Source of the DNA: a virus
Direction: 5' to 3' (one strand)
DNA: 52,935 bases
IMG/VR virus record: IMGVR_UViG_3300034082_003237
Span: 1 to 52,935 of that record
This document shows, piece after piece, positions 31,113-52,935 of the stretch (position 1 is its first letter; each line of letters begins with the position of its first letter). The position numbers were made by a program, and so were the translations under genes. Below the pieces are notes generated by a model, which saw nothing but the letters and a program-made list of their open reading frames with translations, made no database searches and had not been told where the DNA came from.

Positions 31113-31646
31113 CTAGCTAGCGTCAACAATCATATGAATCCTGTGAGTGGAGCCATTGTTGTCGACTTTGTGAACCCTGTTGGTGTTGTCTATCACCCAA
31201 ATCTCCCCTGGTTTTAAATTCTTAGAAATACCACCAACCGTGAATGTGCAGGAGCTATTTGTGACAATAGGTATGTGTATTCTGTGAGTGTTTCTGGTGA
31301 CCACTCCCTGGTCTTTGTGCGGCTTAATAATCCCTCCAGGGTTCATCCTTGTCAACATCGAGGACGTTTCTGAAACTTGACCAATGGATTCTCCGACAAT
31401 TTTGCATATTTCCATTATGTCCGAACTGAATTGTTCGTAATGTTGGTGCTTTTCTGGATTGTACTCATTGGACTTTGGAGAATACTTCAACGGGATTGTC
31501 TCGGTGTGATAACTGGCTATCCCCCCTGTGTTTTTTCTACCCCTATATTCACTCCAATCTAGGTCATTGAAGGATAAAACCTTATTCAGTAGATTCTGAA
31601 AGTCTGGGAAAATTCCCACATATCTAAATGCTTCATTTTCTTTCAT
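31113..31646 (-). CDS. Asp/Asn beta-hydroxylase-like 2-oxoglutarate oxygenase, 177 aa
   Basis: Second Fe(II)/2-oxoglutarate enzyme of the window, of the aspartyl/asparaginyl hydroxylase (cupin-like) type. IIKPHKDQGV gives HxD, RIHIPIVTNSSC the adjacent strand, GEIWVIDNTNRVHKV the distal His, and THRIHMIVD the C-terminal strand with the 2-oxoglutarate Arg. The start at 31646 has TAGGAT (31653-31658) 6 nt upstream, a leaderless layout placed just after the capsid-gene terminator. The substrate could be a protein or an amino acid. Confidence 0.8.
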   Translation of the reverse strand: MKENEAFRYVGIFPDFQNLLNKVLSFNDLDWSEYRGRKNTGGIASYHTETIPLKYSPKSNEYNPEKHQHYEQFSSDIMEICKIVGESIGQVSETSSMLTRMNPGGIIKPHKDQGVVTRNTHRIHIPIVTNSSCTFTVGGISKNLKPGEIWVIDNTNRVHKVDNNGSTHRIHMIVDAS

Positions 31647-31722: not shown

Positions 31723-33099
31723 TTACGCTTCTGGAGCTCCGTCGAAGTCAATCGAAACGAACGCTTCTGGACGCTTGACAGCCAGAGCAAGTCTCTGTTC
31801 TGCAAGAATCACGATTGCGTTGCGCACGAAGAAGTCTGAGTGCTGTTCCGAAATTCGGATTGAAGCCTGCTCGCGGTCGTACAGCTGTGCAGCAGTACCG
31901 AAAGCACCGACGAGGCCGGTTCCTTCTGTCATTGCTGGAGTGTCGATAACTGGCATTCTCCAAACGCGTGGCTCGCCACCCATTGCAACCGAAACTGCGA
32001 TGAGGTATTGACCCTGCTCGTCCTTCGTCAACTCGATGTCTTCCCAGTCGTTCGGGTGCAATACAACGCCCGATGGCTCGTAGTAAGCCAAGAAGGACAG
32101 TGTTGCAGCACGACGGATTGCGTCAGCCTTGGTGTCCACCACTGGAAGTGTTGCACCGTCTGACCATGCGTACGTCTGGATGTTTGGTGTCTGCAAAACG
32201 CCCAAGAGGTTCTCGCCAGCGCCATCGCCGTTAAGAATTTGGTTGTCTTCCAGCAAACGAAGTCCGTACATCAACTCGTTGTCGATGATTGAACGCAGCT
32301 GTGGCTCATCGGCAAGGACGTTGCGGTGTGCAGCTTCCCAGTGTGCCAATGTGCGAACAGGTGCCTGCTCACCAACGAATGAGAACGATGACTGTGGCTT
32401 CAACGCAAATGCGCTGTTTCCACCGTTACGCTCAGCAATTGTTGAAGCTGAGTTGACACCAGCAGCGAAGCCGTAACCCTCCTGGATAGGAGTGGTGAAG
32501 CCGAGCTGACGGAAGTATTCGATAACTGCTGCAGTTGTTGTGCGAACTGGGAACAAGTCACGAACACGCTTTGTGCGCATTGGCTGTGTAACCATTGCAT
32601 CGCGCTGTACTGAACCGAACGAACCGATTCGGCTGTTTGTTACGTCAGTGCCAGGAAGTGCTGAGTAAACATCTTTTACGTTGTACGAGCCAGATGTGAA
32701 CGAAGCCTTTACCTGCCATGGTGCAACCATGTTTGCGCCATTGCGGCCATTTGCGAGGGTCTTGAATTCAGCTGAATCCAAGAACATTTCGCCGATTGAC
32801 TTGATTTCACGGCTTGAAAGCTGTGAAACTTCTGCACTTGCTGCAGCAAAAGAGCCTGCAACACTTTCTGCTGGCTGTGAAGCCCATGAATCAACGCTAT
32901 TCATTGTCTGCATACCGTCGATGAGGCTCTTGATTTCCTTGATGTCTGACATGTTCTTGTCGAACGCTGTCTTCTGCTCAGGGGTGACGACAACTGTGCC
33001 GTCTTCTACACGGAATGAATCCGCGATGGCCTTATTGTCGGCCATCTTTCCACGAAGTGCACCTTGCAGTTCGTTTAATCTTGAATTGTCTTGCGACAT
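31723..33099 (-). CDS. HK97-type major capsid protein, 458 aa
   Basis: Forms the icosahedral shell. Residues 1-110 are helical and charged (NELQGALRGKMAD, IKEIKSLIDGMQT), like the scaffold/delta domain removed on maturation. The body shows HK97 features: VRDLFPVRTTTAAVIEYFRQ, EAAHRNVLADEPQLRSIIDN, NGDGAGENLLGVLQ, GVVLHPNDWEDIELTK and the final FVRNAIVILAEQRLALAVKRPEAF-type strand. The ATG at 33099 follows AACAGGAGCAAAAT. It is alone between a terminator and an A/T-rich leader. Confidence 0.92.
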   Translation of the reverse strand: MSQDNSRLNELQGALRGKMADNKAIADSFRVEDGTVVVTPEQKTAFDKNMSDIKEIKSLIDGMQTMNSVDSWASQPAESVAGSFAAASAEVSQLSSREIKSIGEMFLDSAEFKTLANGRNGANMVAPWQVKASFTSGSYNVKDVYSALPGTDVTNSRIGSFGSVQRDAMVTQPMRTKRVRDLFPVRTTTAAVIEYFRQLGFTTPIQEGYGFAAGVNSASTIAERNGGNSAFALKPQSSFSFVGEQAPVRTLAHWEAAHRNVLADEPQLRSIIDNELMYGLRLLEDNQILNGDGAGENLLGVLQTPNIQTYAWSDGATLPVVDTKADAIRRAATLSFLAYYEPSGVVLHPNDWEDIELTKDEQGQYLIAVSVAMGGEPRVWRMPVIDTPAMTEGTGLVGAFGTAAQLYDREQASIRISEQHSDFFVRNAIVILAEQRLALAVKRPEAFVSIDFDGAPEA

Positions 33100-33965: not shown

Positions 33966-34691
33966 CTAGAACCTTTTTATTTTCTGCTCAATAGCTTTGT
34001 CGATTCTGTTTGCGGAGACTGATTCCGTTTGTTGAGATAGTGATTTTACTCTTCTTAGGGAGCGATTGTTGCTGCATCCAACCCCGGTTTTTTCATCTAT
34101 AAAACGGGATATTTTTCTAGAGAATCCGAATCCGGACAATTCCTGCATCTTCATGGACTCAAAAGATTGCTTGTATTCCGAGCGAAGGTCAATGAATTTT
34201 CCAGATTTTGTATCGATAGATACTTTTCGGTTTTTTGCTTCTTTTATCAAGGAAATCTTTTTAATTTTGTTCTTAAATGATTTTGCTCTATAGTCAAGCG
34301 CGGAAAAAGATGAAGAATCTTTATCTATTTTTTTAGGTTTTGTCTGAACCGATAGATTCTTGCTAAATACTGTCCTTCCTGCAAAAACTGTTTTTAAGGA
34401 AAATGTCTTCTGGATAACCTTTTCTGCAAACTGGTCTAATTGAATTTTTCCTGAGAATGTTTGGCTGATAATCGATTGGGCTGCATTGTCGCTGATTTGC
34501 TTAAACCTCGTTGATTCAGTCCATTCTGGCGCTTTTATGTCGGACTCAGAAATTACTGTCTTTTGAGCATTGTCCGCCCAAGTTGAGCCCATCTCGTGAA
34601 ACCCGTAAAAAGAAAAAGTTTCATCGTTTTTTAGAACTAGCGCGAATGGCGTGTCTCTGACTGCATCTTTAATTACTAGTATCTCAGGCAT
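33966..34691 (-). CDS. Hypothetical structural-block protein, 241 aa
   Basis: The ATG at 34691 follows GGAGGGCAAG, and overlaps the previous gene by 8 nt. The N-terminal part looks globular (EILVIKDAVRDTPFALVL, ETFSFYGFHEMGS), the rest is rich in Lys, Ser and Gln and probably elongated. One Cys (VGCSNN). No family recognised. Confidence 0.55.
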   Translation of the reverse strand: MPEILVIKDAVRDTPFALVLKNDETFSFYGFHEMGSTWADNAQKTVISESDIKAPEWTESTRFKQISDNAAQSIISQTFSGKIQLDQFAEKVIQKTFSLKTVFAGRTVFSKNLSVQTKPKKIDKDSSSFSALDYRAKSFKNKIKKISLIKEAKNRKVSIDTKSGKFIDLRSEYKQSFESMKMQELSGFGFSRKISRFIDEKTGVGCSNNRSLRRVKSLSQQTESVSANRIDKAIEQKIKRF

Positions 34692-36714: not shown

Positions 36715-37366
36715 AGTCCCCACCGCAGCACTCTGCTGACTTTCGACCTTCCGGAATCTCGAACTTCATTGTATTTCCGTCTTCGTCTTCGCCTTCCATT
36801 TCCCAGTTGCTTTCATCTCTGAGGAATTTGGAGAACTTCGGCTCCATCTCGATGAAGTCACGCAAAACGCTAAAAGCGTGAAGAATGTCTGATTCGGTTA
36901 CTACATCCTTTGGGTTCTTATCATTAGCACCCTTGAACTCGTGGAAGAATACATCGTCCTCGTAATACGAGTCGTTTAAGGACTTCTTTGCGGTTCGCTT
37001 TGCGGCATTACGAAGGTGGCTAGCAAACTCCATGTTCGTCCAATTGTTTTTCTTGAGTTTCCCGCGGCAATTCTTCATGCCTGGATGATGGCATCCCTCA
37101 TTTGGCCAAAGACCAGTTGTCTCGTGATGCAACCATGCGCAAATATTGTTCAATGGGTATAGCTCTGGGTGATTTGCAAGAATCACTCTGCAACGACGGA
37201 ATCCGCCAGGCTTGCGCATGATTGGTCTCCAGTAGCGTAAAAGCCTTTCCAGGTTTCCACGACGGGGGCCGTATCCACGAAGCAGGTCGCCGGTGACTAG
37301 TTCTTGAGGAATTATTCCGCCAAGAGGGTCGAGTTTCACTTCGTTATTTTCGAATTCAGAACTCAT
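36707..37366 (-). CDS. Conserved actinophage structural-block protein, 219 aa
   Basis: The ATG at 37366 overlaps the previous stop. VTGDLLRGYGPRRGNLERLL followed by YWRPIMRKPGGFRRC and NICAWLHHETTGLWPNEGCH is a motif set I recall from capsid-region proteins of actinobacteriophages. The Cys/His cluster (CAWLHH, GCHH, NCRGK) may bind zinc. The C terminus is acidic and ends in ECCGGDYE. Role unknown. Confidence 0.6.
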   Translation of the reverse strand: MSSEFENNEVKLDPLGGIIPQELVTGDLLRGYGPRRGNLERLLRYWRPIMRKPGGFRRCRVILANHPELYPLNNICAWLHHETTGLWPNEGCHHPGMKNCRGKLKKNNWTNMEFASHLRNAAKRTAKKSLNDSYYEDDVFFHEFKGANDKNPKDVVTESDILHAFSVLRDFIEMEPKFSKFLRDESNWEMEGEDEDGNTMKFEIPEGRKSAECCGGDYE

Positions 37367-37792: not shown

Positions 37793-40700
37793 TTAGTCGA
37801 CCATCAAATCTAATTGTTCGCTTTTTCTTATGCTGTCAAGTGTTTTCTTTAGTTCTGCTTCAACTTCTAAATCGATGTTTCTCTTAAGTATCTCATCAAC
37901 CTTGGTTGTTGGGCTGGCTGTTTTGTCATACGAACGAGGATTCTCGATATTTATGCCTTGTGGGTGGGCGAACTTAACATATCCAACGCCCATACCTTCA
38001 TACTTTTCTTTAATCTTCTTGGCGGCACGATACTCCTTGAGCTTGACCATGCTTGCGGTGTTTAGGGGCTTACCTCCAGATATTGAATAGAAGTAAGCAA
38101 CCTCTTCTGGGGTGAATCCAAGTTTTTCAAGTTTTGAGGCAAGCGACCCGTCGTTTACAACATCTGAGATATCTTCTGATTCAGCAATCTTGGCCACCTT
38201 CGAATACGGGTAGTGAATTCCCTCAACTTCGTTCTTCTTGAATCCACCAAGTATTTGGGCCTCAAATGGTTCGTGACCTCGGGTCGAAGAGTCAACAGCG
38301 CCAACTGGCGCCATCCTGCCATTTTCATCCATTGAAGCATTGACGGATGAGAAGTTCTTATCCATCTTTGCTCCAAGCAGATGCAGCATCGCTTCGGTGT
38401 TTTGCTTGCTTGAAGCAATTCCATCGGCGTTCATGATTGCGTCAGCTATGTCGTCAGGGTCGTTGGAGTTCATCGCTACTGGTCTGTGCGCCGACTGTAG
38501 AGCCTCTCCACGCCCATATGCGGTGCGATTAGACACTTCGGGCTTGAGGATGACCTCTATCTCCCCGAGCGCTGTAAGCCCGTCTCCAACCAAGTCGTTA
38601 TCACCAATTTCAAAGATTGCATCGCTGCCAATGTTTCCCTTGCCCGATGCGGCGATTCTTCGTTTCTTCTCTTCGTTGTGGGAACGATGCACGACATATC
38701 CACTTACTGGTTTTGCAGAGTTTGGAGTTGATTTGCTAATACCGATTCTGCTGTTGTATTCATTCCTGAGCACATCAGAAGAACGACCAGCCCTTCTTCC
38801 AGAGCTGAATACTGCATCGAAGTCATCAAATTCGGTCTTTGCTGGCTTGGTGTTGTTTATCTCAAACCCTGCAAATGGGTCATCGTATTCATTCGACATT
38901 GGAGTTTGCGAAGGAATCGATGTTATGTCAAAATCTCCAAATGGGTCAGTTTCTGATGGCTTATTCTTACCCCTGCCAAATCTCTTGCCTATCTTTTCGC
39001 GAGCAGAACCAATCACTTGTCCTGCATTCTCAACCAACTCCCCGCTTCCGGCTCGTATGGTATTGCCGAATTCGTCTAGTCTCTGCCTGTTTTCATCTGT
39101 GACGACTCGCTCATCAATGAAATCTGAAGCAATGGTCCAAGCGTCTGCAAGCTTATCTACCACTGGGTCTGGCAGGCCATTTGGTGCGACTCGGTCAACA
39201 GCAGACATTGCTACATCCATCTGGTTTTGGCTTATTCTGCCTCTTTGTACCGCTTCTTCCAACCCTCGTTCGGCAATTTCCCGTCCTGCTCTTCGCGCAG
39301 CATCTACAGCTATCGCGGTGGCGAATCCGACTGGACCACCAGCCGCCAGAGCACCAGCCATATTCACTCCGTACTTAACGCGTTCACGAGTGTCTTCGTC
39401 CGCTCCAGAGCGCTTAAGAACTGCGTCCAATACTCTCCCCGTTGCGCGACTGCCAGCAATACCGGCAACTCTCTGTGTTCTACTAGGGCCGCTTCTTGCA
39501 CCAGAAGAAAGACGACCTGAAGAACCAGTCCCACTTGCAAATAGTTCTCCAAGTTCGCTCAACTTGGACGAGTGATTGATTTTTTCTGAGCCAATATTAT
39601 ATTTTTCACCTAGTGCGAGCATCAACTTGCCGTGGCCACGACGGTGGTAGTCCTCAGGCACGAGTATGTCCGAGATGGTTAGTTCTCCGCGATTCCCAAG
39701 CTCTCCGCCAAGGTCTGTGCGCGCGTGAAGAACTCCAACCTCAATCCCGTTAGACCTCATTCTTACTGTAATGTTCTGTTCCTCGGTATCATCAAATCGA
39801 GTCTTTAATTCTGATTCTATAGATACCTTTATTGCATCTCCATTTTTATCTTTTACAGTCAGCTGTACGTCTCTATTTTTAAGGCGATTCGATTCTTTAG
39901 AAACAGATAGTTTGTCTTTGTCTACCGCTATGGAAACTGAATCAATGTTGAGCTTGACCCTATTCTTCTCTATTCTGTCGATTACCTTGTTGAGGTAATC
40001 CCAGCGACGACCACCAGAACGTTCCGCGTCGCCCACGGTTGAGTATGGGGTCAGGTCTCTGTTGATAACCTCCCACAAATCGTCATTGATGGATATTCTT
40101 GCTTTTGGTAGTTTGCCAAGGGCATAGCCAGTACTGCCATTCTTCTTTAGCAGTTCGATAGCTTCTTCTTCTGAGGCAACCACCCCAACGTCATGGAAAT
40201 CAATTTGTGTTAAGTCATCGATATCGTTGAGGATTGTTGCTATTCTCTTGAATTCTGGAACATCGTAGTAATTGTCTATTGATTCATACGTGTCACCCTT
40301 GTTGAACCATCCACCTCTATCAACAAATCGTTTGAACTCCCTGTCAAATATTACATCCGATTTTCCAACACCAAAAACTGGATACCATTTCCCTACCGGA
40401 TTTTCTTTCCCGCCTTTACCCGTGCTCTGATAGAACGGTATTCTTATTCCGTTTACGTCAACCAAGACCATTGGTCTGCCAGCAACTGAAAAAATTGGCG
40501 ACTTTTTCTGCTGGCCCGTTTCTGAATCAATCAAATCAACTTCTGTTATTTGCAAATCCAGATTTCTTAAATAGTTTTCTGCATCATTAACCTTTTTAAG
40601 CTGTATTTTTCTTTGTTTTGGCGAAACTCTTGCGCCGGAAGACAATCTTCCGGACGATGCGTCAGGGTTGCTGCTTGCTTGACCAGCTCTGCGACCAGAC

Positions 40701-43700
40701 GAAAATTCATCGTCTACCATGACCCCTGTTGTCCCAGTAAATTTGTCTGATATACCAACGCTCTTTTGGGCATTTTTGCTCATTCGCGCTAGTTCTTGTG
40801 GCCACAGTTCAAGTGTTGGCGGTCTGCCTAACTGCTCTTCTGTCCCTGAAGCATTCATTTCAATGTATGCATGTGGCATATTTGAATGCATTTGATAATT
40901 AAATCCTTCGCCTTTTGCGATTCTTCTCACGGCCGATTCCGCTCCAGTGGATGAGCTGTACTCTCCTGGTTCAAAGAAGTGTTTTGCACCAAGTTCTTTC
41001 AGTGCTGTCCTCACCATTTCATTTGAATCACCGTCTTCTGTTGTTTTCACAACCTGAAAACTACCCTTTGGCATCTTTATCCCGCCACCTGGCTTAGGTG
41101 TTAAGACGGTGTCAACTGGGAAAAGAGAATCTACGCTGTCTGGATTATTTTCCAATACATCTCTAAGTCGAACAACTATTACATTTGAACCTGGTTTTTG
41201 TTGGCGAGCAATATGACCACCAGCAATATGGTTAAGCGCAAAGTGTATCGTGTGTCTTTGGACGGTTACTTTTTCTCCTGAATCAGAGGTCAATTCATAG
41301 GCGCTAAGTGGTTTAAGTATTATGTTTCCGTCAGCGTCCAGTGGTGGGTCGTACTGAGTTTCGTGAACCAAGTACAAATCATCCACACCAATTTTGTCTA
41401 GACCCTCTTTTCGTTCTTGCAAAAGGTCGTCCTCAGAGAAAGATATTCTTTCAATAGATTTTTCTCTTTCTTCAGCAATAAGCTCCAAACCAATTTCAGA
41501 AAGCCTGTCGAACTCTTTTGCTGCGTCATCATCACCACGAACAGACGCATAAAACAGTGCGTCAACATCTGTTGACTTTCCAGGATTTCCTCCTTCGCTG
41601 AGGTACGCGGCGCGGGCAGCTACCCACTTCTCGGCAAGTTCCTGCCCTTTCTCACTTGTTCTATCAAGACCAGTTATGGCGTAAGGATTTATCGGTACAT
41701 TTTTTATCTTAGCGTCCGACTCCATTTCAAAATCATTGGTCGGGCCACCGAATACGACAGACTCCCCTCCAATGTCGTAAACATCAAATGCTTTTCTTTC
41801 TTCGCCAAATCGTCCGTCTTTTTTTGCAAATCCTTGAGTTGGAGATTTTTTGAGGTCTCCAGGTTTTAGCGTTCTCTCTATTGCCCCAGATGAAAGTTTT
41901 TCTGGTTTTTCAGAAATTTCTTTTCCTCTTTTTATCCCAAGCTCATCCTCGTTTTGAAAGGTTTCAGCTCGTTCAAGTTTTCTGTATATTTTTGCTCCAG
42001 ATGACAGTTTTGGAGCTGTGCGCCTTGTTTTTGGGTTTAACCGTCTTTCAAGCCTGCGACCAATCGCGCCGCTTTCAAGCACAACATCGTCTGTCTCGGT
42101 TGGCAGAAACTCGCCATCATCAGCAAATTTTGTTAATTGATTCTCTGTCATTCTTACGCGTGGACGCTTGTCTATCCCTGCGTGGAATTCAACTGCTGCA
42201 TCTTCAACGTCTTTAATCAAAGCTTCAGGAGATTTTCGTGCGATTTCGTTAGCCACAACAGAGTCAAGTGAGTCCCTTGACATATCGTTCATTACGTCTT
42301 TTGGACTCTCTCCAGCCATGACGCGCTTAATATCTTCAAATGTCATATTTGCCCTAGTGGCTCTTGCGACTTTTCTTTCTTCGCGCGTCTGTGGAACACC
42401 AAGAACTTCACGTCCTGATGTTGGGTCCGATACGGAACCAGCTGACGTCTTGTATGGTGCTCGCTTGCCAGTCCCCGGTATATAGTCTTGGTCAAATTCT
42501 GGCGGTTGCGGGAGGTTTGTAATTATTTCTCCACGCTTTGCAAGTTCGTCGTCAAGAGATTTCAGGGTTGCCCTGTCGGTTCCTTGAAAACCTTTTTTGT
42601 CGTTTGCATAATCAGGCTCAAGTAATCGCAAATATGTGGCGGCTCTTCTGCTTAGAAGCTCGCCAACATTCATTCGATTAACTGTCTTCATTATTGGACG
42701 ACCAGTTTGTGGGTCGACCTGGTCTGGCTTGATATCTGCTTCGGCGGGCTGAATAAGTGGAGACTTGCCAACTTCTGCCACGTAGTCCTCAGAAGGTGGT
42801 TCGCCAAATGAACCGCCAGCGCTGATTACTTCCCGTTTTGCCTCTATGTTCCTATCTTCGATTTCCACCTCACGCTTCGGTCTTGACGGGGTAGACGGTA
42901 GACCATTCTCTCTTCTTTGAGCAACATACTTGTTGGCGATTCTGTCAATCTTCTTTTTTGTACCCTTTGCGTGCTGCGATGCACTGGGCCCCTCTTGCCC
43001 GATTGACGACGAAACCCTGTCTAAAACATCAACAACATTGTCCTGCTCTTGGACGCGGAGAACGATTGTTCCGTCAGGTCTTACATCAACAACTTTCATT
43101 TTGCCTGGAGGAAGAACTAGTGAACCCTCTTCGCCAAGAACTGTTTCGTTCGTTCTAAATAGTCCTTTATCGCCTTTTGATACCTGCACTATGACGCGAG
43201 ACTTTTCCTTGCCAGCTCGAGTGACAATTTCTCCGTTGGCATCACGAACCTCACCTGGCTTGTGAGGTGATTCATCAGTGATAATCCGACCGCTTACAAA
43301 ACTCTGATTATCAAAGTTTTCGTTTATCGTTTTGAAACCGTTTTGTACATCAAAGTACATCTCGGCTTCGACCTCAATGTCGTCTGGGATAGATGATTCA
43401 TCTATCGCTTCCATCGCTGGAATAAGAACTTTCTCAATTTGGTCTTCCAGTGCTGCAGTCTCGCTACTGGGTGAAAGGTCACCAGCGCTTCTTTGCGCTC
43501 TTCTGTAACGACGATTAATGTTCTTTATGGCAACAACATTGCCGTCTGGGTCAACTAGATTGCCAATATCGGTCAAGGATGGGTCACCAAGTCGTTCTAC
43601 TGCTGCAGCTTGCTCGCCTGTCATTGCATATGATTCATCTTTTTGAATCTTTTTTGCATAGCTGGCACCAGACTTATCGGTCTTGACCTTCTTCGTTTTC

Positions 43701-46501
43701 TTTAGCGCTTGTTGTCTTGGTGGATTCACGAGTTCATCAACCCTTGTGTCAAGCTCACGTCTCTGCTTTGACCAAACCTTTGGGTCTTCGGAGCCATCAA
43801 GTTTTGATTTGTATATTGCCCGAACAATTTTTTCGTCTTCAAGAAGAACCGATTTGGAATCTGCGGATAGTCCTGGCTCTTTTAGCGATGTTCGAATATC
43901 AGCAAGCTTCTGTATTGCATCATCTGGAGACATGTCTTCGGCTTGTTTTGTAAGGTTCTTTATTTCCTCTTGACGAGAACGTGCAGCCATCTCTTCTGGC
44001 CTCAGAATTCCTTCCGAGAACATCTTTTCACGTACCGATTCGCGCATTTTCTTTACATCGCTGCGTCGTCTTTCCTTATCTTCACTGCTGAATCTGCTGG
44101 CCCACTTCTTTTCAATTAAAGCAATCTTTGCATTGTTTTCTTTAATTTTTCTATTTAGCTCTTTAAATTTAGGGGAGTCCTTGCTCTCTCCACTTGCCTC
44201 AAGATTGTCAAACGAGTCATTGTATGCTTCCCTATTGTATTCAAGACCAGTAAGGGCATCAATAAAGTCATCGTTTGTTTTTGATGAATCGTCGGTCCAT
44301 CTCTCAATCTGAGACAGCTCCTTTTTGTGCTCTATGGCAAGTCTTTCTTTAACTTGCGCAATACTGTTGCCTGATAGTTCTGGGTCTGGACCAAGGTTCT
44401 CGTAGTAGCGAGACTCTATTTCTCTCAGTCCATCCGCATCAGACCTTCTTCTGATGTCGACGTACCTACCGTCAGAAACATCATCCATCCATTCGAGGGC
44501 AGCGTCTATATCGTCACCATAGATAAGTCCGAGGTCCCTAAGCGCCCAAAGCTCAGCGGTTGCTTCTAGCGCCCACCACTCTGCTCCCTTGTCATCGTTG
44601 AAATACATTTTTGGATATTCTCCAGCGAGAAATCCAACAACATCAGTCCTTGATAGGGCGTTTTTAAGTGACTCAAGGTCTATCCCATCACCAGACTTTT
44701 GCATAAGCCTAAATACCATCCCGCTATTGAGGTCCCTAATATCATCGACCTTTACCGTCTCACCCTTGTCGTTGATGGCCATAATAAAACCATTAGTTCT
44801 AATCTGTCGTTCTGCTTCTCTGTTGAAAGCTTGCAACTGAATTGTGTGAGCAATTTCGTGTTTCATAATATGTCGTGCGAATGCACGTTCTTCAACCATT
44901 GCCGCTAGTTGTTTTGAATGCCCGTCAACAGTGACCAAGAAGTCAGTTAGGGCCGTTGCTCTTTCGGAGTCAGTCTTTCCACCAACAAAATCTATTCGCA
45001 TTCTTTCGCCTGGGGCGAGACTCGGTATTAATGCTTCCTGATTATTCATTATCTCAGGAATATCAACATTTATAACGCTCATCACGCGCTTGCTGTCGGG
45101 AGATGTGTAGCCACCGGTAGAAGCTTCGTCCATCTGCGGGTCATTCGGACTCTTGACTTCAAAATTAATCTTTGAAATCGTCCTCATGTGTTCTGGGTCA
45201 GCAATGAATGAATCAAGAGCTGATTCAAGTAGCGCTCTTTCGGTTGTGTACCAGCGCTCTGTGTCTGCTGCAATCAAGCTCTTCTGGCGCTCTGGTGAAA
45301 GACCCGAAAATCCTGGAACGTGCGCAAGTCTTGCCTTGACTATTTTGTCAACGTCCTCTGCGGAGAGTCTTGTGCTTGTATCTATCGTCCATGCACCGCT
45401 GTCTCTCAGCTTCTGAAAAACCTCAAATACGTCGTCGTTTGTCTTTCTTTTTTCATCTGTTCTAATTACGCCAAGCGAGTCCATAAGGCTTGCAATGTTT
45501 ATATCTTGTTGCGCGAGCTTGTCCTGCGCGCGAATCATTCCATCAACGAATACTCGGCTTCTTCCGTCCTTATTGGCTTCGCGCCATTTCTTGATGTTGC
45601 GTATTCTTTTGCCGTTTGGGTCTCTCCATACGGTTCTTCCAAGTCCTGGTATTCCACCGTTATCAACAAATGAAATGAATTCAAACAGTTTTTTTGTGGT
45701 GTTCTTTACACGCGTGCCATCGCCCGTATCGATGCCGCTAGCCATTCTCTTAGCAAAGTCAAATATCTCCGATGCGGAGATACCAAAGCAGTTGGCGCCG
45801 GTGCTGTCGGTAAATTGGTTCGCAGCAGGAGTTCCTGGTGGGCATCTAAATTTTCCGTTTTCATCAACGAGTATTCCAAATGCGCTAGCTGCTCTTGCAA
45901 TGAGCGACCTGCCTCTTTGTCCGATTGTTTTTCCTGGAAGTCGCTTTTCGCTATAACCAGAAGAGTTTACCGTCTTGTCTCCGTTGAGGCTGAATGGGTC
46001 AAGAGTCTGTTCCGACTCCTCGATAATCTCGTCAGTCTTTTGATTGACTTTGTATTTCCTTATTCGCAGTTTTGGTTTTGCTGCGAGGACCTTTGCATAT
46101 TCGTCGGCCGAAACAGAACGTGGCTCATCAACCCATCCGAAGTTTGGTTTCTTTACAGCAGATTTGCGCGACCTAATTGATGGAAAAAGTTGAAGAACTT
46201 TACCCTCTTCCCACTTTTGGCTAGCAACATAGTTGTAACCATTGGGAAGTTCAACCATTCCGGGAGTTCCTCCCTTGTTGGTTCTTTTCTTCCCATCAGT
46301 GTCTTTATATGTTTCACTGCCAGTGGCGACATCAAGCGCCTTAACCGACAGTCCTGCATTTAGAGTCGACCTTGTTATTGACTCGACTACAGCCTTTTTA
46401 AACGCAATTGCTGCGTCGTTTAAGTCTCTTCTGCCGACGAGTGGCGATACAAGCCTCTCAGATGTGATTGTACGTGTTTTGTAGAACGGCTTACCCGTCA
46501 T
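37793..46501 (-). CDS. Giant multi-domain polyprotein with zincin and GNAT-like modules, 2902 aa
   Basis: ATG at 46501; a TTG 57 nt upstream would overlap the previous gene. Landmarks: RCPPGTPAANQFTDS two-Cys module (about 220-240); zincin MKHEIAHTIQ (H548, H552) with EATAELWA near 648; coiled coils (720-960); beta-rich region (about 1060-1190); a module with YLVHETQYDPP and RHTIHFALNH (about 1705-1790); a GNAT-like block SDILVPEDYHRRGHGKLM (about 2275); a hydrophobic Gly-rich stretch (about 2380-2405); and a C-terminal domain with GYVVHRSHNEE and GEIEVILKPEVSN (from about 2600). [LF]SSG[AR] motifs at about 1498, 1534, 1932, 1954, 2330 and 2565 separate the C-terminal modules. Probably packaged and processed (inference). 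Confidence 0.7.
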   Translation of the reverse strand: MTGKPFYKTRTITSERLVSPLVGRRDLNDAAIAFKKAVVESITRSTLNAGLSVKALDVATGSETYKDTDGKKRTNKGGTPGMVELPNGYNYVASQKWEEGKVLQLFPSIRSRKSAVKKPNFGWVDEPRSVSADEYAKVLAAKPKLRIRKYKVNQKTDEIIEESEQTLDPFSLNGDKTVNSSGYSEKRLPGKTIGQRGRSLIARAASAFGILVDENGKFRCPPGTPAANQFTDSTGANCFGISASEIFDFAKRMASGIDTGDGTRVKNTTKKLFEFISFVDNGGIPGLGRTVWRDPNGKRIRNIKKWREANKDGRSRVFVDGMIRAQDKLAQQDINIASLMDSLGVIRTDEKRKTNDDVFEVFQKLRDSGAWTIDTSTRLSAEDVDKIVKARLAHVPGFSGLSPERQKSLIAADTERWYTTERALLESALDSFIADPEHMRTISKINFEVKSPNDPQMDEASTGGYTSPDSKRVMSVINVDIPEIMNNQEALIPSLAPGERMRIDFVGGKTDSERATALTDFLVTVDGHSKQLAAMVEERAFARHIMKHEIAHTIQLQAFNREAERQIRTNGFIMAINDKGETVKVDDIRDLNSGMVFRLMQKSGDGIDLESLKNALSRTDVVGFLAGEYPKMYFNDDKGAEWWALEATAELWALRDLGLIYGDDIDAALEWMDDVSDGRYVDIRRRSDADGLREIESRYYENLGPDPELSGNSIAQVKERLAIEHKKELSQIERWTDDSSKTNDDFIDALTGLEYNREAYNDSFDNLEASGESKDSPKFKELNRKIKENNAKIALIEKKWASRFSSEDKERRRSDVKKMRESVREKMFSEGILRPEEMAARSRQEEIKNLTKQAEDMSPDDAIQKLADIRTSLKEPGLSADSKSVLLEDEKIVRAIYKSKLDGSEDPKVWSKQRRELDTRVDELVNPPRQQALKKTKKVKTDKSGASYAKKIQKDESYAMTGEQAAAVERLGDPSLTDIGNLVDPDGNVVAIKNINRRYRRAQRSAGDLSPSSETAALEDQIEKVLIPAMEAIDESSIPDDIEVEAEMYFDVQNGFKTINENFDNQSFVSGRIITDESPHKPGEVRDANGEIVTRAGKEKSRVIVQVSKGDKGLFRTNETVLGEEGSLVLPPGKMKVVDVRPDGTIVLRVQEQDNVVDVLDRVSSSIGQEGPSASQHAKGTKKKIDRIANKYVAQRRENGLPSTPSRPKREVEIEDRNIEAKREVISAGGSFGEPPSEDYVAEVGKSPLIQPAEADIKPDQVDPQTGRPIMKTVNRMNVGELLSRRAATYLRLLEPDYANDKKGFQGTDRATLKSLDDELAKRGEIITNLPQPPEFDQDYIPGTGKRAPYKTSAGSVSDPTSGREVLGVPQTREERKVARATRANMTFEDIKRVMAGESPKDVMNDMSRDSLDSVVANEIARKSPEALIKDVEDAAVEFHAGIDKRPRVRMTENQLTKFADDGEFLPTETDDVVLESGAIGRRLERRLNPKTRRTAPKLSSGAKIYRKLERAETFQNEDELGIKRGKEISEKPEKLSSGAIERTLKPGDLKKSPTQGFAKKDGRFGEERKAFDVYDIGGESVVFGGPTNDFEMESDAKIKNVPINPYAITGLDRTSEKGQELAEKWVAARAAYLSEGGNPGKSTDVDALFYASVRGDDDAAKEFDRLSEIGLELIAEEREKSIERISFSEDDLLQERKEGLDKIGVDDLYLVHETQYDPPLDADGNIILKPLSAYELTSDSGEKVTVQRHTIHFALNHIAGGHIARQQKPGSNVIVVRLRDVLENNPDSVDSLFPVDTVLTPKPGGGIKMPKGSFQVVKTTEDGDSNEMVRTALKELGAKHFFEPGEYSSSTGAESAVRRIAKGEGFNYQMHSNMPHAYIEMNASGTEEQLGRPPTLELWPQELARMSKNAQKSVGISDKFTGTTGVMVDDEFSSGRRAGQASSNPDASSGRLSSGARVSPKQRKIQLKKVNDAENYLRNLDLQITEVDLIDSETGQQKKSPIFSVAGRPMVLVDVNGIRIPFYQSTGKGGKENPVGKWYPVFGVGKSDVIFDREFKRFVDRGGWFNKGDTYESIDNYYDVPEFKRIATILNDIDDLTQIDFHDVGVVASEEEAIELLKKNGSTGYALGKLPKARISINDDLWEVINRDLTPYSTVGDAERSGGRRWDYLNKVIDRIEKNRVKLNIDSVSIAVDKDKLSVSKESNRLKNRDVQLTVKDKNGDAIKVSIESELKTRFDDTEEQNITVRMRSNGIEVGVLHARTDLGGELGNRGELTISDILVPEDYHRRGHGKLMLALGEKYNIGSEKINHSSKLSELGELFASGTGSSGRLSSGARSGPSRTQRVAGIAGSRATGRVLDAVLKRSGADEDTRERVKYGVNMAGALAAGGPVGFATAIAVDAARRAGREIAERGLEEAVQRGRISQNQMDVAMSAVDRVAPNGLPDPVVDKLADAWTIASDFIDERVVTDENRQRLDEFGNTIRAGSGELVENAGQVIGSAREKIGKRFGRGKNKPSETDPFGDFDITSIPSQTPMSNEYDDPFAGFEINNTKPAKTEFDDFDAVFSSGRRAGRSSDVLRNEYNSRIGISKSTPNSAKPVSGYVVHRSHNEEKKRRIAASGKGNIGSDAIFEIGDNDLVGDGLTALGEIEVILKPEVSNRTAYGRGEALQSAHRPVAMNSNDPDDIADAIMNADGIASSKQNTEAMLHLLGAKMDKNFSSVNASMDENGRMAPVGAVDSSTRGHEPFEAQILGGFKKNEVEGIHYPYSKVAKIAESEDISDVVNDGSLASKLEKLGFTPEEVAYFYSISGGKPLNTASMVKLKEYRAAKKIKEKYEGMGVGYVKFAHPQGINIENPRSYDKTASPTTKVDEILKRNIDLEVEAELKKTLDSIRKSEQLDLMVD

Positions 46502-46517
46502 GGCGGGCCGCGCTTTC

Positions 46518-47969
46518 TTAGATTGTGTCGGTTTCTGCTTCGAGCAACTGGAACTCAACGAGCGACTTCATGAAGTCTCCATCCATTGTTTCTTCGTTCT
46601 TCTTGCTCATGCCTTCTCCGCCAGCAACCCAGCCCGCTGGGATGAGGCTTTCTTTTCCAAGTTCTCGAGCACGCTTCATGATGTGACGCTTTGCTGCTTC
46701 CTTGTCCTTTGCGCGACCGAATGCTTGAACGGCATTTCTTAGGTCAGACTCATTCGCGATTGGGAAAGAACCATCTGGAAGTGCATTTCCTTCTTTGGCC
46801 ATAGCATTGCGCTGCTCTTCTGTGAACGCACGCTTAAGAGCAATTTCTGCTGCTTCTGCCTCAATCTCTTCTGCCTCTTCCGGCTCATACTTGTCGTATC
46901 CAAGTACCTCTCCGTCCAGGGCGACGAATACGTCATAAGACTTTCCATCGAATCCTTCAATTTCTACGGCGTATGAGTCGATTCCTTCGAAGCTGTCTGG
47001 TTCAACTGCAACAACGTGACCATCAATTGACTTGACGGCAATCTCCGCTGCATCGGTGAAACTAATCAGATTAAGTTCATCGATTGCTGCCTTCTGCTCA
47101 AATACGCTTTCGTCGAGTTTGTGCCAGCCCATAACCTCGGCTGATGTACCATCGATAAACACTTCGATTGCCTTGCCATCCTTTGCCTGCACATCAATAA
47201 CGAACATGTCTGCATCTGGAGAGTAACCAGAATCGATAACTTTTCCGTCGAACATATCTTCGGCCATGCCTTCAACATGAAGAAGTCCGGGCATTCCTTT
47301 TTCTGCGATACATCCACCAGGGCAGTTCTCGCATACAGAAGTTGTTCCAGAATATGATTTACGCTCAATGGCGCAAACATATCCATGCTCGCCGATGTCT
47401 TCTGATTTAATTCCCATTGAGGACATTCTTCTCTTTTTAAACTTGTCCATCATGGCGTTTACTTTTTCCGCATCGGCCATGTCCTCTTCGTCTTCTGAGT
47501 CCATTTCCTCATCGTCGTCCCCTAGGCCCATTTCGTCATCATCGTCGACTTCTGCTTCGAACTCGTCTTCGTCAGACTGTGGAACGCCCTTCTCTTCTTC
47601 GTCTTCGTCTTCTTTTTTCTTGAACTTGTTCATGGCGGTGTTGATTTTCTCTTCATCATCCATCATGTCTTCTTCTTCCATGTCATCCTCTTCGGACTCC
47701 ATGTCTTCTTCCATGCCCATGCCCTTCATTGGCTTCTTCTTTGGCATCATGCCGTACATCTTTTGCATGTCCTCTTCGGTCATGTCCTCATCCGCAATAT
47801 CCAGGTCGGTAGCAGGAACCATTTTCATCTCTACCGGCATTGCACCGCACTTGCCACAAACCTTCGCTCCTGGGGTAAAACCGCACTCAGAAGCCTCGAG
47901 CCCCTTGGCGCACTTGAGCACAGCCCCTTCGCTGTCGATACTCACTGTTGCCTTGTCGTCGTAAGCCAT
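46518..47969 (-). CDS. Acidic protein with zinc ribbon, PepSY-like repeats and DUF6582-like end, 483 aa
   Basis: The ATG at 47969 follows AAGGAGCTCTATTTT. Order: zinc site (VLKCAKGLE and VCGKCGAMP, residues 18-45), a very acidic Met/Asp/Glu region (50-190) with two related KVNAMMDKFKKR-type helices, CENCPGGC at about 215, two PepSY-like units (DMFVIDVQAKDGKAIEVFID and SYAVEIEGFDGKSYDVFVA), then an RNAVQAFGRAKDKEAAKRHI block like DUF6582 seen at the end of phage maturation-protease or structural proteins. It may be a scaffold or assembly factor (inference). Confidence 0.6.
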   Translation of the reverse strand: MAYDDKATVSIDSEGAVLKCAKGLEASECGFTPGAKVCGKCGAMPVEMKMVPATDLDIADEDMTEEDMQKMYGMMPKKKPMKGMGMEEDMESEEDDMEEEDMMDDEEKINTAMNKFKKKEDEDEEEKGVPQSDEDEFEAEVDDDDEMGLGDDDEEMDSEDEEDMADAEKVNAMMDKFKKRRMSSMGIKSEDIGEHGYVCAIERKSYSGTTSVCENCPGGCIAEKGMPGLLHVEGMAEDMFDGKVIDSGYSPDADMFVIDVQAKDGKAIEVFIDGTSAEVMGWHKLDESVFEQKAAIDELNLISFTDAAEIAVKSIDGHVVAVEPDSFEGIDSYAVEIEGFDGKSYDVFVALDGEVLGYDKYEPEEAEEIEAEAAEIALKRAFTEEQRNAMAKEGNALPDGSFPIANESDLRNAVQAFGRAKDKEAAKRHIMKRARELGKESLIPAGWVAGGEGMSKKNEETMDGDFMKSLVEFQLLEAETDTI

Positions 47970-48107
47970 AAAATAGAGCTCCTTGCGCCTAATGGTATGC
48001 AGAAGGCAAAACAGCCAACTGTTTATTAAATTATTTGTTTGTAAAAGTATAACCTACCATAGCGCCGCTATGGGAAGTATTAATAATAACGCTTTTTTAA
48101 TTATCTA
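47970..48107 (-). promoter_or_regulatory. Promoter region with a palindrome over the -35
   Basis: On the minus strand TATACT (48046-48051) is a good -10. The perfect 7-bp-arm palindrome CCATAGC-GGC-GCTATGG (48057-48073) covers the spacer and the -35 position. No U-run follows the hairpin, so an operator is more likely than a terminator. It would control the block from 47969 leftward. Confidence 0.5.
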
Positions 48108-51100
48108 TTAACGTCTTCTCTGTGAGTTGTCACGAAGCTGAAGAAGCTTGGTCCACTGAGATGGACTCAGAAATCCACTAGCTTCGAACTGGGACAAAAC
48201 GCTTTGCGCAAATCCACTCCACTTGGCATTTTTTGCCCAGCCGATTATTTCGTTTTGCATCCTTGGCGTTATGTTCTCTGGGGCTCCATTGTTCTCTCGG
48301 CCAGCAGACAATTTTTCAACTGCGTCCTGGCCAGAGGTGGATATCCTGCGGGCGGCTCTACGCCCACTACTCATGGAGCCACCGCTCTTTATCGACTCAA
48401 CCGTTTCGCTCAGGTCGTACTTTTTGTTGAGCCTGTCAACTATTTTCTGAACCTCATCATCGGTATAGCGAAGCGCCTTTCCTGTGTTTTTGCTAAATTT
48501 TCCTTCTTTTCCTGCCTCAAAAGCTCGAAGTCTCGTCTGAACTTTGGTTGCTCCAACCACTTCGTCCAGCTCTCTGCCTTTTACTCTTTTCCCTTTTCTG
48601 GCAAGAGTGTCGGCGATATTCTTCCAAAGGTCAAATTGCCTTATTGAGTTGTCGAATTTGACTCCCTCTTCCCCAAAAACATCTCCAGCGCTTGGGATTA
48701 TTCCATTATCCACCAACTGCTCAATGATGGACGTCGGAACGCCTTCACTTTTCCACTTTTTGAGCTGAATTGCGGTTGGCGTAATCGTCTCGCCGTCAAC
48801 CTCAAATGTAATGGCTTCCGCCAGTTCGTCATCAGACTCGACACCGAGCGACTCCGCAAGAGCAGAGACCGGGAAGGAACTCTTTGAAATTTCCCTAGCA
48901 ACAAACTCATCAGGCAGTTCGAAGTCGGTCGGGTAGAACTGAGGGGCCATCGCTATGCCCTCTTCTTTGTAATCCTCGTATTCCGCTCTGCTTAATTGGT
49001 TTCCTCTTCGTCGGTCATACCAGTAGGGGGCTGCATCAAAGCCCCAAATTGCCTCAAGCGTCTCATACGACCTGCCTGGGTCTCTGCCGCCGAAGAATGC
49101 CCTGTCAATAAATTCGTAAGCATCTATTTCAGATATTCCTGCCCCATCTTCGAACATCTTTTCAATTTCTGCTTGACTTACGCCAAGGAACTTTGCACTC
49201 TGCTCCATGCTCAAAGGGGTTCCATCTTCGTCTTTAAGAATTTGCTCAAGTTTTTTGGCGTCAAGCATCCATTTACCATCTGGGGACCTGTCGTTATTCT
49301 CTGACATTTTGCCAAATTTGATTTTGACTTTATCCTCAAGGTATCTGCCGACATTGTTTCTTGCTTCACTGTCGGGGAATCTAAGCCGCCCAGAGCTAAG
49401 TCGGTCATTGCCGAATTCATTTTTGCTTGGCCCTGGTCTCTTCTTCCCTGGGATTGTCGCCGCTCTTTGTCTTACCCCATCAGCAAATGCTTGTCTGTCG
49501 GCATCTGACATCGGTCGGCGCTTTGAGCCTTGAGTCCTGGTCTTTTTACCAGAGCTCAACCTGTTTCCATCTGCAGCATTCGCAACACTGGCAGTACCAG
49601 AGCCACTCGGCGCCAGAATATCCTCAGGAAGGTCTGGCGCATCGGTTTTGTATCTATCTAAGCTGACCCCGTTTTTCTCAAAATCACCTTGGATTCTGAA
49701 CAGGTCGCTCAACTCTTGGTCAAGTTTTTTCATAGTTGACGAATAAAAGTTACTCAGTTTTGCTGCAAAATCTTGAGGAGTTGTTGTTTCGTCCACCTCA
49801 TTGATGATGTCCTCTATCCCGTCTATTTGAGTCTTCAGCGAGCTGACGTCCGGCTCATTGCGACTTTTGCGATAAAAGTTATCAACTTCTTTTAACGTAG
49901 CTTCAATGAAATTTGCGTCAATTAGCATCGAATCCAGCGCTTCGGCATCATCCCCATCGGAATTATCAATGTGGAGCTGCATAGCAGTATCAAAATCTAA
50001 TCTCCGGAGTCTATTGTCGGGGTCAAAATGCATTCGTTCCAGGTCGCTAATATTTTCACGCAGATAATCAGTCTGTTCGTTGACCCATTCAAGTAGTTCC
50101 TCGTTTGATACCAGCCCTTCCGTTATTCTGTTAATCGCCATCGACAGGTCGTCCACAAAATCAAAATCATCCTCAGACATGTATTCAAACAAGTCGCCTA
50201 CTCTCGGGAAGTAGTTATCTTTAGGAGTAATTTTTTTTCCATCAAGAACAGAGCGAATAAATTCATATTTTGCCGACACCAACTCATCAACCCCTCTTAG
50301 GGCGTCTCCATGTTGTTCTATCGGAAAGAACATACTGTTTCGGCTGCGGGTAGCCCTCGGATTTCTTATTTCATCCAGAGCGGCTTTTACTATTGTATTG
50401 TTGCTTTCAACCCTGTTAGCAAAATCGGATTTAATGTCTTCTGGAGACCTTCCGGAGCTTAATCCGCGGTCGCCTGAGACCCTGTCGGAGACTACATTCC
50501 TTGTTCTCTGCGCAGAAGAACGAGGAGCGCCCTGTGGGACACCAGGTTGCGTCGGGTTGTATGGGGCATCAGCACCATCGATTATCCCGTCAATCTTGTG
50601 GAGGCTAAAGCTTCTGTACTGACCCGACTCTTCGTCAAGTCCAATAAAATAAACCCCTCCGCCCTTCTTCGTCATCATTCCAGTTGGGTAAACCATTCTT
50701 GGCTTGCCGTTATAACTGAATGAAATGACTTCTCCGTTTCTTCGTATGGCGTCAAAGTCGTACTTCTCAACAGGAACCATGAGTAGATTTGAAGCGATGT
50801 GTCTTGCGTTTGAGCCAGCTTCATCGGTTCTCTTTAGAGCATCTGACACCAAACCAATTTCCTCAACTGGCTTGTCGTCGTATCTCGAACGCATGCCAGA
50901 TGAAAGACGAGAGTTTTCTCTCGAAAGCTCCATCTGAATATCGCTGGCTTCGTCAGCCCAGTCATCCATCGTCCAGTCAAGGCGTGATTCATTTATGTCG
51001 GCAATCATTCTGACGTATTGCTGCCTGTCTGAACGCTCTCTTGAAATCCTTGCGTAGTCTTGGTACTCTGCGTCCCTACGAGCAAGCTCTTCGTCGAGCA

Positions 51101-52935
51101 TGATTGATATTTTTTCAACATCTTTTTCTTGTTTGAATTTTTTAGACCATTCTTGGCGTGTGGATTCATAGCTGGCAATCCACTTGGCCGCATCTTCCGG
51201 ACTCTTAAATTCATCACTTATCAATCCGCCTGGCTCACGCTCGGTGTAACCGTTGCCAAACTCAAGGCGAAGAAGTTCAGCACTCCAGTTACCGAACTCA
51301 TCCTCGGAAATATTCCACTGGTTGGGTGAGCGTGACTCACCAAGGTCTGCGTAATCCTCAAACCAATTCCTATCACCATCACGAGGCCCTTGTGCCATTT
51401 GGAATCTTGTTAGCAGCTCGTCACCAAATGCCCCCATCTCATCGGCAAGAGTTCTAATCGTTCCTTCTGGGTTTCTTACGTATCTATCGCGTGCTCCAGA
51501 AGACAGCGAAGGAGTAATTTCTCCATATTCTCCGTCGTTATTGCCAGGGATGGCCCCTGCTTCGGCAACCTTTTTGCCAAGCTTCTTGCTCATTGATGGA
51601 GACTTCGATATAGCAAAGTCGTGTGCTTTCTGCGCTTCGCCAAAGGCCTTCTTCATTGCATCAGGGTCTGATTTAAGTCTCTTCAACCAACCAGCAAGAT
51701 ATTGAGCGTGGTCTTCTCTTGGCTCTGGTGTTAAACCGTGTGCGGCCATAAAGAACGCAGAGGCTATCTCTGCAATCAATTCTTCCTGTGCGTACTCAGG
51801 GCTTCCGAAGTCGCCAAGGTGGTCTCTGTTAAGACGTGACGAGTGCCCTGTCCAGTGCATTAGTTCGTGGGCGAATACTGCGTAATATCCTTCTTTGCTC
51901 TTGAATGAAGCAAAAGGGGGCAGTGTAATCTCGTCTGTCGACGGTCTATAGAAAGCTCTATCCCCACCGTGATTTACAACCGCTCCAACCTCGGACAGTG
52001 CTTGCTCAAGTTCGGCAACTCTCTCTGCTTCTGGAAGCTCTGCAATCTTAAACTTATCCTTATCAATTCCATCAATTTGGTCAATATTGAATACATGGCC
52101 AGTCTTAAAAAATATTCCACCAGATGAGGCGATTTCTTTGCCGTCGGCATCTTTCTTCTTTGGAAGGACGGTCGGAATCATTATCATGGTTCCCTTCTCG
52201 CCCTTTCGAACTGTTCCGCCCTCTTTCTTCCACTGGTTGAATCCAGCCCAAAGAGGAGTTTTGTAGCCCATTGAGTCTTGCTTAAACATGAGCATCATGC
52301 TGTTGATACCACTGTATGGACGGTTATTGTTTGTTACGTTCTTTGGCAGTGCGGTCTTGTGCCAAGGGAACTCCCATTTTCCGTCGCCAGTCTCCTGGAT
52401 TTTTTCTATCTGTTCAATGAGTTTTTCTTGAACGCTTCTGTATACCTCGTCCATTTTCCCAGATGAAAGTTTTTGGCCAGGCTCCATCCCCTCAAGCGGG
52501 CTAACGTAGTCCCTCTCCGACCGTGGAGGACCCTGGTCTCCCGAAGAGCGACGAACAGAAACCCTAGAGAGGAATTCCTCTGCTGCGGCATCTTCTGCCT
52601 TTAGGAAATCTATGTGCGAGTTGTTTCTAGCTCTGACCTGTTCTTTGCTTATTGACAATTCCTTGGCAACCGCATCCAGTGAGGCACCAGAAGAAATCTG
52701 TTCGTTTATATACTTATTTAGAGCTTCGTCTGCTGCGTTCTCTTCAGCCATTCGATATTGTTCTTGACGGTAAGCCTCAGCGTCATCTGCATCAAGGGTA
52801 GACAGGGTTCCCCTCATCCTCGCCATATGACGCTTTTCTGCTTGCGCAACCTCTTCGCGCCTAATACCGAGAGCTGTAGCCGTTTCGGCCAGTGACTCTC
52901 CACCCATTCTTCTTTCGAATATCTCTCTATCCGAT
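48108..52935 (-). CDS. Giant polyprotein with ArdC anti-restriction and WYL-like domains (5' end outside window), over 1600 aa
   Basis: The frame is open to the window edge, so the start is missing; residue numbers count from the Met at 52907. Two HTH-like repeats (TATALGIRREEVAQAEKRH, VAKELSISKEQVRARN) come first. From 147 to 469 lies a complete ArdC: ssDNA-binding part (WEFPWHKTALPKN, NRPYSGIN, WAGFNQWKKEGGTVRKGEKG) and zincin HELMH at 347-351 with EELIAEIASAFF. A WYL-like unit spans about 706-772 (ISFSYNGKPRMVYPTGM, GVYFIGLDE). Helical and HTH-like parts follow. LSSG-type motifs fall at about 147, 469, 667, 815, 1116, 1170 and 1514, with an LSAG at 1533. Probably packaged and delivered with DNA (inference). 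Confidence 0.75.
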   Translation of the reverse strand, partial: SDREIFERRMGGESLAETATALGIRREEVAQAEKRHMARMRGTLSTLDADDAEAYRQEQYRMAEENAADEALNKYINEQISSGASLDAVAKELSISKEQVRARNNSHIDFLKAEDAAAEEFLSRVSVRRSSGDQGPPRSERDYVSPLEGMEPGQKLSSGKMDEVYRSVQEKLIEQIEKIQETGDGKWEFPWHKTALPKNVTNNNRPYSGINSMMLMFKQDSMGYKTPLWAGFNQWKKEGGTVRKGEKGTMIMIPTVLPKKKDADGKEIASSGGIFFKTGHVFNIDQIDGIDKDKFKIAELPEAERVAELEQALSEVGAVVNHGGDRAFYRPSTDEITLPPFASFKSKEGYYAVFAHELMHWTGHSSRLNRDHLGDFGSPEYAQEELIAEIASAFFMAAHGLTPEPREDHAQYLAGWLKRLKSDPDAMKKAFGEAQKAHDFAISKSPSMSKKLGKKVAEAGAIPGNNDGEYGEITPSLSSGARDRYVRNPEGTIRTLADEMGAFGDELLTRFQMAQGPRDGDRNWFEDYADLGESRSPNQWNISEDEFGNWSAELLRLEFGNGYTEREPGGLISDEFKSPEDAAKWIASYESTRQEWSKKFKQEKDVEKISIMLDEELARRDAEYQDYARISRERSDRQQYVRMIADINESRLDWTMDDWADEASDIQMELSRENSRLSSGMRSRYDDKPVEEIGLVSDALKRTDEAGSNARHIASNLLMVPVEKYDFDAIRRNGEVISFSYNGKPRMVYPTGMMTKKGGGVYFIGLDEESGQYRSFSLHKIDGIIDGADAPYNPTQPGVPQGAPRSSAQRTRNVVSDRVSGDRGLSSGRSPEDIKSDFANRVESNNTIVKAALDEIRNPRATRSRNSMFFPIEQHGDALRGVDELVSAKYEFIRSVLDGKKITPKDNYFPRVGDLFEYMSEDDFDFVDDLSMAINRITEGLVSNEELLEWVNEQTDYLRENISDLERMHFDPDNRLRRLDFDTAMQLHIDNSDGDDAEALDSMLIDANFIEATLKEVDNFYRKSRNEPDVSSLKTQIDGIEDIINEVDETTTPQDFAAKLSNFYSSTMKKLDQELSDLFRIQGDFEKNGVSLDRYKTDAPDLPEDILAPSGSGTASVANAADGNRLSSGKKTRTQGSKRRPMSDADRQAFADGVRQRAATIPGKKRPGPSKNEFGNDRLSSGRLRFPDSEARNNVGRYLEDKVKIKFGKMSENNDRSPDGKWMLDAKKLEQILKDEDGTPLSMEQSAKFLGVSQAEIEKMFEDGAGISEIDAYEFIDRAFFGGRDPGRSYETLEAIWGFDAAPYWYDRRRGNQLSRAEYEDYKEEGIAMAPQFYPTDFELPDEFVAREISKSSFPVSALAESLGVESDDELAEAITFEVDGETITPTAIQLKKWKSEGVPTSIIEQLVDNGIIPSAGDVFGEEGVKFDNSIRQFDLWKNIADTLARKGKRVKGRELDEVVGATKVQTRLRAFEAGKEGKFSKNTGKALRYTDDEVQKIVDRLNKKYDLSETVESIKSGGSMSSGRRAARRISTSGQDAVEKLSAGRENNGAPENITPRMQNEIIGWAKNAKWSGFAQSVLSQFEASGFLSPSQWTKLLQLRDNSQRRR

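Follow-up and report, generated by a model that had tools for sequence, protein, structure and literature searches.

What function could a four-residue motif have when it recurs along two giant phage proteins? The question is raised by an IMG/VR virus fragment of 52,935 bases (the window, by which we mean the entire stretch analysed), in which proteins A and B, both encoded on the minus strand, carry six and seven copies of [LFM]SSG, respectively. A sequence-only reading of this DNA had reported about 13 LSSG, FSSG and MSSG sites, and we located all 13, each within 10 nt of where it had been placed. The same reading gave the two proteins as 2902 aa and more than 1600 aa; the first length holds for A when it is started at an ATG, and the second describes just the C-terminal 1608 aa of a longer protein B. 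The features of A, B and the intervening protein C are as follows.

37793..46558, minus strand: giant protein A, 2921 aa from TTG (2902 aa from ATG at 46501)
38798..38809, minus strand: motif AVFSSGRR in A, within the constant C-terminal part
39500..39511, minus strand: motif GRLSSGAR in A, end of the GNAT-like cassette
39596..39796, minus strand: weak acetyltransferase (GNAT-like) match in A (phrog_3810, E 0.0098)
40634..40645, minus strand: motif GRLSSGAR in A, head of the GNAT-like cassette
40694..40705, minus strand: motif DEFSSGRR in A
41885..41896, minus strand: motif EKLSSGAI in A
41996..42007, minus strand: motif PKLSSGAK in A, where the cassette slot begins
44846..44860, minus strand: HExxH motif KHEIAHT of A, within its constant part, candidate second protease
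46518..47969, minus strand: protein C, 483 aa, acidic, scaffold-like
48108..52934, minus strand: giant protein B, a polyprotein of ~3650 aa represented here by its C-terminal 1608 aa, open at the window edge
48300..48311, minus strand: degenerate motif EKLSAGRE (KLSAGRENNGAP) in B, heading the NNGAP cassette
48363..48374, minus strand: motif GSMSSGRR in B
49389..49400, minus strand: motif DRLSSGRL in B
49548..49559, minus strand: motif NRLSSGKK in B
50451..50462, minus strand: motif RGLSSGRS in B, after the WYL-like unit
50586..50741, minus strand: WYL-like unit in B (E 0.0013, below the Pfam cut-off)
50895..50906, minus strand: motif SRLSSGMR in B, before the WYL-like unit
51495..51506, minus strand: motif PSLSSGAR in B, after the ArdC metallopeptidase
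51645..52013, minus strand: MPTase-PolyVal zincin of ArdC in B (E 8e-43)
52089..52448, minus strand: ArdC N-terminal domain in B (Pfam ArdcN, E 6e-26)
52458..52469, minus strand: motif QKLSSGKM in B, before ArdC

Across the whole array the 13 sites compare with about 0.3 expected by chance. Composition-preserving shuffles gave on average 0.20 [LFM]SSG copies in A and 0.13 in B, against the 6 and 7 seen, and the maxima reached in 2000 shuffles were 3 and 2, which rules out a chance origin in Ser/Gly-rich protein. The strict motif does not characterise the remaining proteins of the window, and in a related 160-kb contig its basic-flanked form is nearly confined to A and B, with one extra copy in a 1413-aa protein. 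The latter (G010 12733-16971, minus strand) lies outside the A/B region and has a single KFSSGRS near its N-terminus, making it a possible extra substrate. The degenerate copy at 48311 in the window is probably a real site, because close relatives show LSSG or LASG there. Four other candidates were rejected: ISSG at 52697 falls within an HTH-like repeat, and alignment shows no conservation of it as a motif; LSSGE in a 679-aa protein (34806) is LSAG or LSPG in relatives; VSSGS in a 239-aa protein (33619) is conserved within the genus but little else varies there, and it lacks the flanking pattern; and MSSM/MATM in protein C is not conserved.

The consensus of 99 non-redundant copies is [KRGS]-[L73,F24,M2]-S-S/A-G-[R42,K20,A17]-[R34,K21], from a search pattern that fixed the [LFM] and S-[SA]-G positions and left the flanks free; Ser and Gly are near invariant, and Arg or Lys is common on both sides. 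The T4 prohead protease recognises L/I-x-E, and among these 99 copies there is no conserved Glu corresponding to the acidic P1 (x-E) of T4/phiKZ-type substrates. Both TCN and AGY serine codons are used in the motif, and within a genome hardly any two copies share a DNA 12-mer. Because nearly every copy is spelled differently in DNA, it is at the protein level that the motif is kept, and a DNA repeat or recombination scar is ruled out as its source.

Exchangeable cassettes bounded by the motif

The motif marks the borders of cassettes. Ten B proteins contain 127 motifs, not one of them within a Pfam domain, where 28.8 would be expected under uniform placement, and 128 of 198 alignment breakpoints lie no more than 25 aa from a motif, against a circular-shift null with a mean of 33 and a maximum of 57, the aligned pairs in this test not being independent of one another. 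The sequence-only reading had placed the motifs at module borders and had named, as a check, whether modules shuffle while the motif stays; the domain counts agree with the former, and cassette comparisons among relatives show the latter. Cassettes between motifs are gained, lost or replaced. Protein A, which has 11 relatives in IMG/VR and no match among cultured phages, has a cassette slot between constant ends, the N-terminal one spanning 1500 aa and bearing a zincin-like HExxH motif; the A proteins of other phages carry one, two or three motif-bounded cassettes, with unrelated alternatives at the same slot, and in that of L010 the slot has no cassette and a single motif is left (RRESPKLSSGARS). 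The middle part of B is highly variable, with a UvrD helicase cassette present or absent and ArdC standing before the helicase, after it, or in a protein that has no helicase. Punctuation of a similar kind extends across a broad group of related phages.

Structure prediction, suggested earlier as a check that every motif lies in a disordered linker, agreed with that expectation in B, where 6 of 6 tested motifs were in or at the edge of coil in a model with a mean pLDDT of 51 in which even ArdC is poorly modelled; for A it yielded no usable model (mean pLDDT 33.5). The coil prediction in B, and the fact that cassette recombination occurs at the motif, are what one would see if the motif were an inert linker or a DNA-level recombination scar between cassettes. 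We nevertheless consider this very improbable, since the 12-mers are unlike at nearly each copy, with switches between TCN and AGY serines, and since inert linkers would not preserve S-S-G or a phage-specific preceding residue.

A maturation protease fused to protein B

Full-length B is 3647 aa in a contig that is 99.9-100% identical to the window over their overlap, and 3190-3710 aa with 14-16 motifs in related contigs; its N-terminus has 32 relatives in IMG/VR. Pfam places Peptidase_S78 (S78) at residues ~33-184 of every full B tested, with 37.8 bits against a cut-off of 21 in the full-length protein (the domain lies beyond the edge of the window and is assigned to it through the near-identical contig) and 36.6-42.8 bits in ten B homologues (Pfam gathering score 21). 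His72 and Ser136 (EWSIGY), which we take from knowledge of the family to be the catalytic residues, are invariant in alignments that include cultured-phage proteases and distant relatives. A search of solved structures gave no convincing match to the head region of B. Single B proteins combine S78, ArdcN, MPTase-PolyVal, UvrD, HTH and a WYL-like unit, and thus hold several enzymatic and DNA-binding domains in one polypeptide, as polyvalent proteins do.

The gene order is portal, B, C, A, capsid protein, the ~690-aa product upstream of B being presumed to be the portal because of where it lies and how long it is. Cultured Gordonia and Brevibacterium relatives have a single protease gene of 417-501 aa, whose N-terminal ~180 residues match B (35-41%), and the C-terminal ~90 residues of the Gordonia phage capsid maturation proteases match the last ~90 aa of protein C (52-56%). 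Because the N-terminus of the protease matches B and its C-terminus matches C, the payload sits between the two halves of a gene that is single elsewhere. A plain state is seen in contigs L157 and L158, where an S78 protein of 441-447 aa is followed by C-like and A-like proteins with essentially no punctuation. We found no motif array in cultured phages, whose matches span only the S78 domain or ArdC.

The HExxH motif of A lies at residues ~555-700 and is kept in nearly all A homologues seen, among them those of every punctuated phage whose A was seen; the two A-like proteins of L157 and L158 lack it. It was observed at residues 555-697 of the A-like proteins of L100, L103, L104, L119, L128, L130 and L148-L155, and proteins of ~1000 aa in the cultured Gordonia and Brevibacterium relatives have a similar HExxH motif. 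The strongest rival to S78 cutting is accordingly a zincin, either the HExxH domain of A or the MPTase attached to ArdC, that would cut at the motif. In favour of it are this distribution of HExxH and the suggestion of Iyer et al. 2017 that zincins process polyvalent proteins (PMC5512222). We nevertheless consider a zincin cutter unlikely: the B proteins of L091, L094 and L112 carry 8-14 motifs each but yielded no MPTase-PolyVal match, an argument weakened for L112 by a C-terminal HExxHxxGH unit in the next ORF, and both the fusion of the maturation protease to B and an LSSR in the capsid protein, described below, favour S78.

Phage-specific dialects and the capsid junction

More distant S78 relatives have proteins of 2500-3530 aa with 4-17 motifs, and individual phages often have a typical residue before L/F, giving dialects such as GLSSG, RLSSG and RFSSG. 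In B, this residue is G at 10/10 motifs of L091, 8/8 of L094 (of the same type as L095) and 12/14 of L112, and R at 12/14 motifs of L122, while L123 combines R with F. The separately encoded A proteins spell the motif in the same way, with the G form at 4/4, 5/5 and 6/6 motifs in the L091, L094 and L112 phages, and with R at 7/9 and F at 8/9 in that of L123. When A was permuted among nine phages, which are related to one another, this degree of agreement was reached 2 times in 20,000. A dialect common to separate ORFs suggests one trans-acting recogniser, and a single recogniser acting on A and B would best account for the shared spellings.

Cleavage is the leading reading because S78 is fused to the N-terminus of B and the dialect is shared by both giant proteins, and we give a probability of about 0.6 to the S78 protease cutting both polyproteins during head maturation, releasing effectors that are ejected. 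On this reading, A and B are polyproteins built of modules, in a group of phages whose capsid proteins are HK97-like. In B, the S78 protease and head region (about 640 aa together) precede the effector cassettes, which comprise ArdC, a UvrD helicase, HTH and WYL-like units and unknown ones, and A has further cassettes between its constant ends. Made with the head genes, the two proteins probably enter the prohead via their protease and scaffold parts, where S78 would act on itself and on both A and the capsid protein, cutting at an [LF]-x-S-[G/R] site (here [LF]SSG[RKA]); the likeliest bond is the one that precedes the invariant second Ser (x|S). We infer that the separate effectors stay in the head after cutting and are ejected with the DNA.

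Shared dialects require just a common recogniser, protease or otherwise, and the motif might be an uncut docking peptide that tethers the modules to scaffold, portal or shell for encapsidation, its basic flanks perhaps binding the acidic protein C. Docking would not need a motif at each cassette border and never inside a domain, and its recogniser would have to differ from the protease that is physically attached; we judge it quite unlikely. A modification site, for example for serine glycosylation or lipidation, strikes us as scarcely credible: the Ser-Ser-Gly core would be compatible with O-linked modification, but no modifying enzyme was recognised beside A and B by inspection short of a dedicated search, and it is a protease that is fused to B.

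Cutting by S78 would extend to the capsid protein, whose closest counterparts (about 48%) are in tail-sheath-encoding phages of Gordonia and Brevibacterium, and which has the following features.

31723..33099, minus strand: major capsid protein, HK97-like, with an N-terminal delta-like region
32809..32820, minus strand: candidate cut site of a related kind, LSSR (residues 94-97), where the delta region is predicted to meet the mature protein, QLSSREIKSIGEMF

The predicted delta/mature junction reads QL or HL[ST]SREIK[ST]IG in every motif-bearing phage examined, whereas a sister group with short, LSSG-free S78 proteins has ETRSIGEAF there, without LxS; as the comparison is between two clades, this contrast counts as one event. 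It suggests that the capsid and A/B sites are of a common type with Ser at P1'. The residue preceding the capsid LSSR does not follow the G/R/K dialect, and maturation could just as well occur at a conserved K/R-S close by. Ser at P1' is favoured by the SPN3US prohead protease (PMC10052503) and is also seen in phage P1 (mature start SVAAEM, PMC9024508).

The short S78 proteins of the sister group (1027-1242 aa) contain no LSSG; LRSSG or GARSxS recurs in several members, and does so in both proteins wherever the pair was seen, though L100 and L130 showed no clear repeat. The 2698-aa S78 protein of L156 has G[LF]xS[RH] seven times against 0.18 expected, for a pattern picked after inspecting the sequence. 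The dialects of these relatives are probably LRSSG or G[LF]xSR. An NNGAP cassette common to the window and L156 is headed by FASRRPNNGAP in L156 and by LSAGRENNGAP, LSSGRENNGAP or LASGRKNNGAP in the window's group. As a tentative generalisation, to which we give somewhat less than an even chance, the protease-headed effector polyproteins of widespread uncultured phages, with their exchangeable cassettes, may have a cut-site dialect that co-evolves with the maturation protease, incoming cassettes taking on the local spelling around a core, the capsid site included, of [LF]-x|S-[G/R/S].

Relation to known phage systems

Polyvalent proteins, head-packaged effectors and processing by prohead proteases are already known. 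Like A and B, polyvalent proteins combine several domains in a giant phage polypeptide, among them ArdC-N, MPTase, helicase and GNAT; their packaging and injection have been predicted (PMC5512222), and the gene order from portal to capsid protein would fit the same for A and B. In the available text of that paper their assemblin-like peptidase is always C-terminal and no punctuation motif is to be found; here S78 heads the chain, which sets B apart from the assemblin-type polyvalent proteins, and a motif marks each cassette. The prohead proteases of T4, phiKZ and SPN3US also cut several head and ejected proteins at a short motif, but their cuts mostly remove one N-terminal propeptide, whereas here the sites separate polyprotein modules, and SPN3US sites are A-x-E, in contrast to the absence of an acidic P1 here (PMC10052503). 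The DarA and DdrB proteins of phage P1 are head-packaged antirestriction proteins, at least one of which is proteolytically processed, and the P1 protease Pro is HK97-gp4-like; unlike A and B, they come from separate genes, and the available text of the sources reports no repeated border motif or protease fusion (PMC5512222, PMC9024508). In Gordonia Chidieberevirus, Bendigovirus GMA6 and Brevibacterium Cantare, the capsid maturation proteases have S78 domains homologous to that of B, with effector-like genes between portal and protease, and those of the Gordonia phages also have a C-terminus homologous to protein C; unlike B, these proteases have no cassettes or LSSG array. With its protease in cis and its repeated border motifs, B may be a viral polyprotein processed by its own protease. 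Among the open-access papers searched we found no protease-headed, motif-delimited phage polyprotein with phage-specific dialects, and nothing relevant on the motif itself.

If the S78 reading is true, dsDNA phages would use a polyprotein strategy like that of picornaviruses or retroviruses in loading and releasing anti-host effectors, the set of which changes. As a parsing rule, the motif would let cassette borders, and with them effector boundaries, be read directly in phage metagenomes, and would allow unknown modules to be expressed with the right ends. The dialect shared by two proteins is a natural data set for protease-substrate co-evolution.

Several minor observations concern the window and its relatives. 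A genome scan for a host returned three MAG contigs, phage-like in appearance, and no host was assigned. The two ends (L018 and L019) of a 172.5-kb contig, G004, hold the same part of B in versions that are 82% identical; the genome may be about 171 kb with two alleles mixed in the assembly, or the region may be duplicated. A Cys-containing unit, which could be a small metal-binding or virion-association unit, occurs in three proteins of the window (A at residues ~219-240, 34684-36723 and 29472-31103), in the forms CPPGTPAANQFTD..NCFG, CPEGYQYGGRFTD..STCG and CWPGYKQVG..NCVP. The last of these proteins (543 aa) is encoded downstream of the capsid gene; its tail is rich in proline, with KPADRYPxPxKKYPPGQKPSPS repeats, and its similarity to relatives is uneven. 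By eye, the products of 29062-29469 and 31113-31646, also among the head genes, are a staphylococcal-nuclease-like and a small dioxygenase-like protein.
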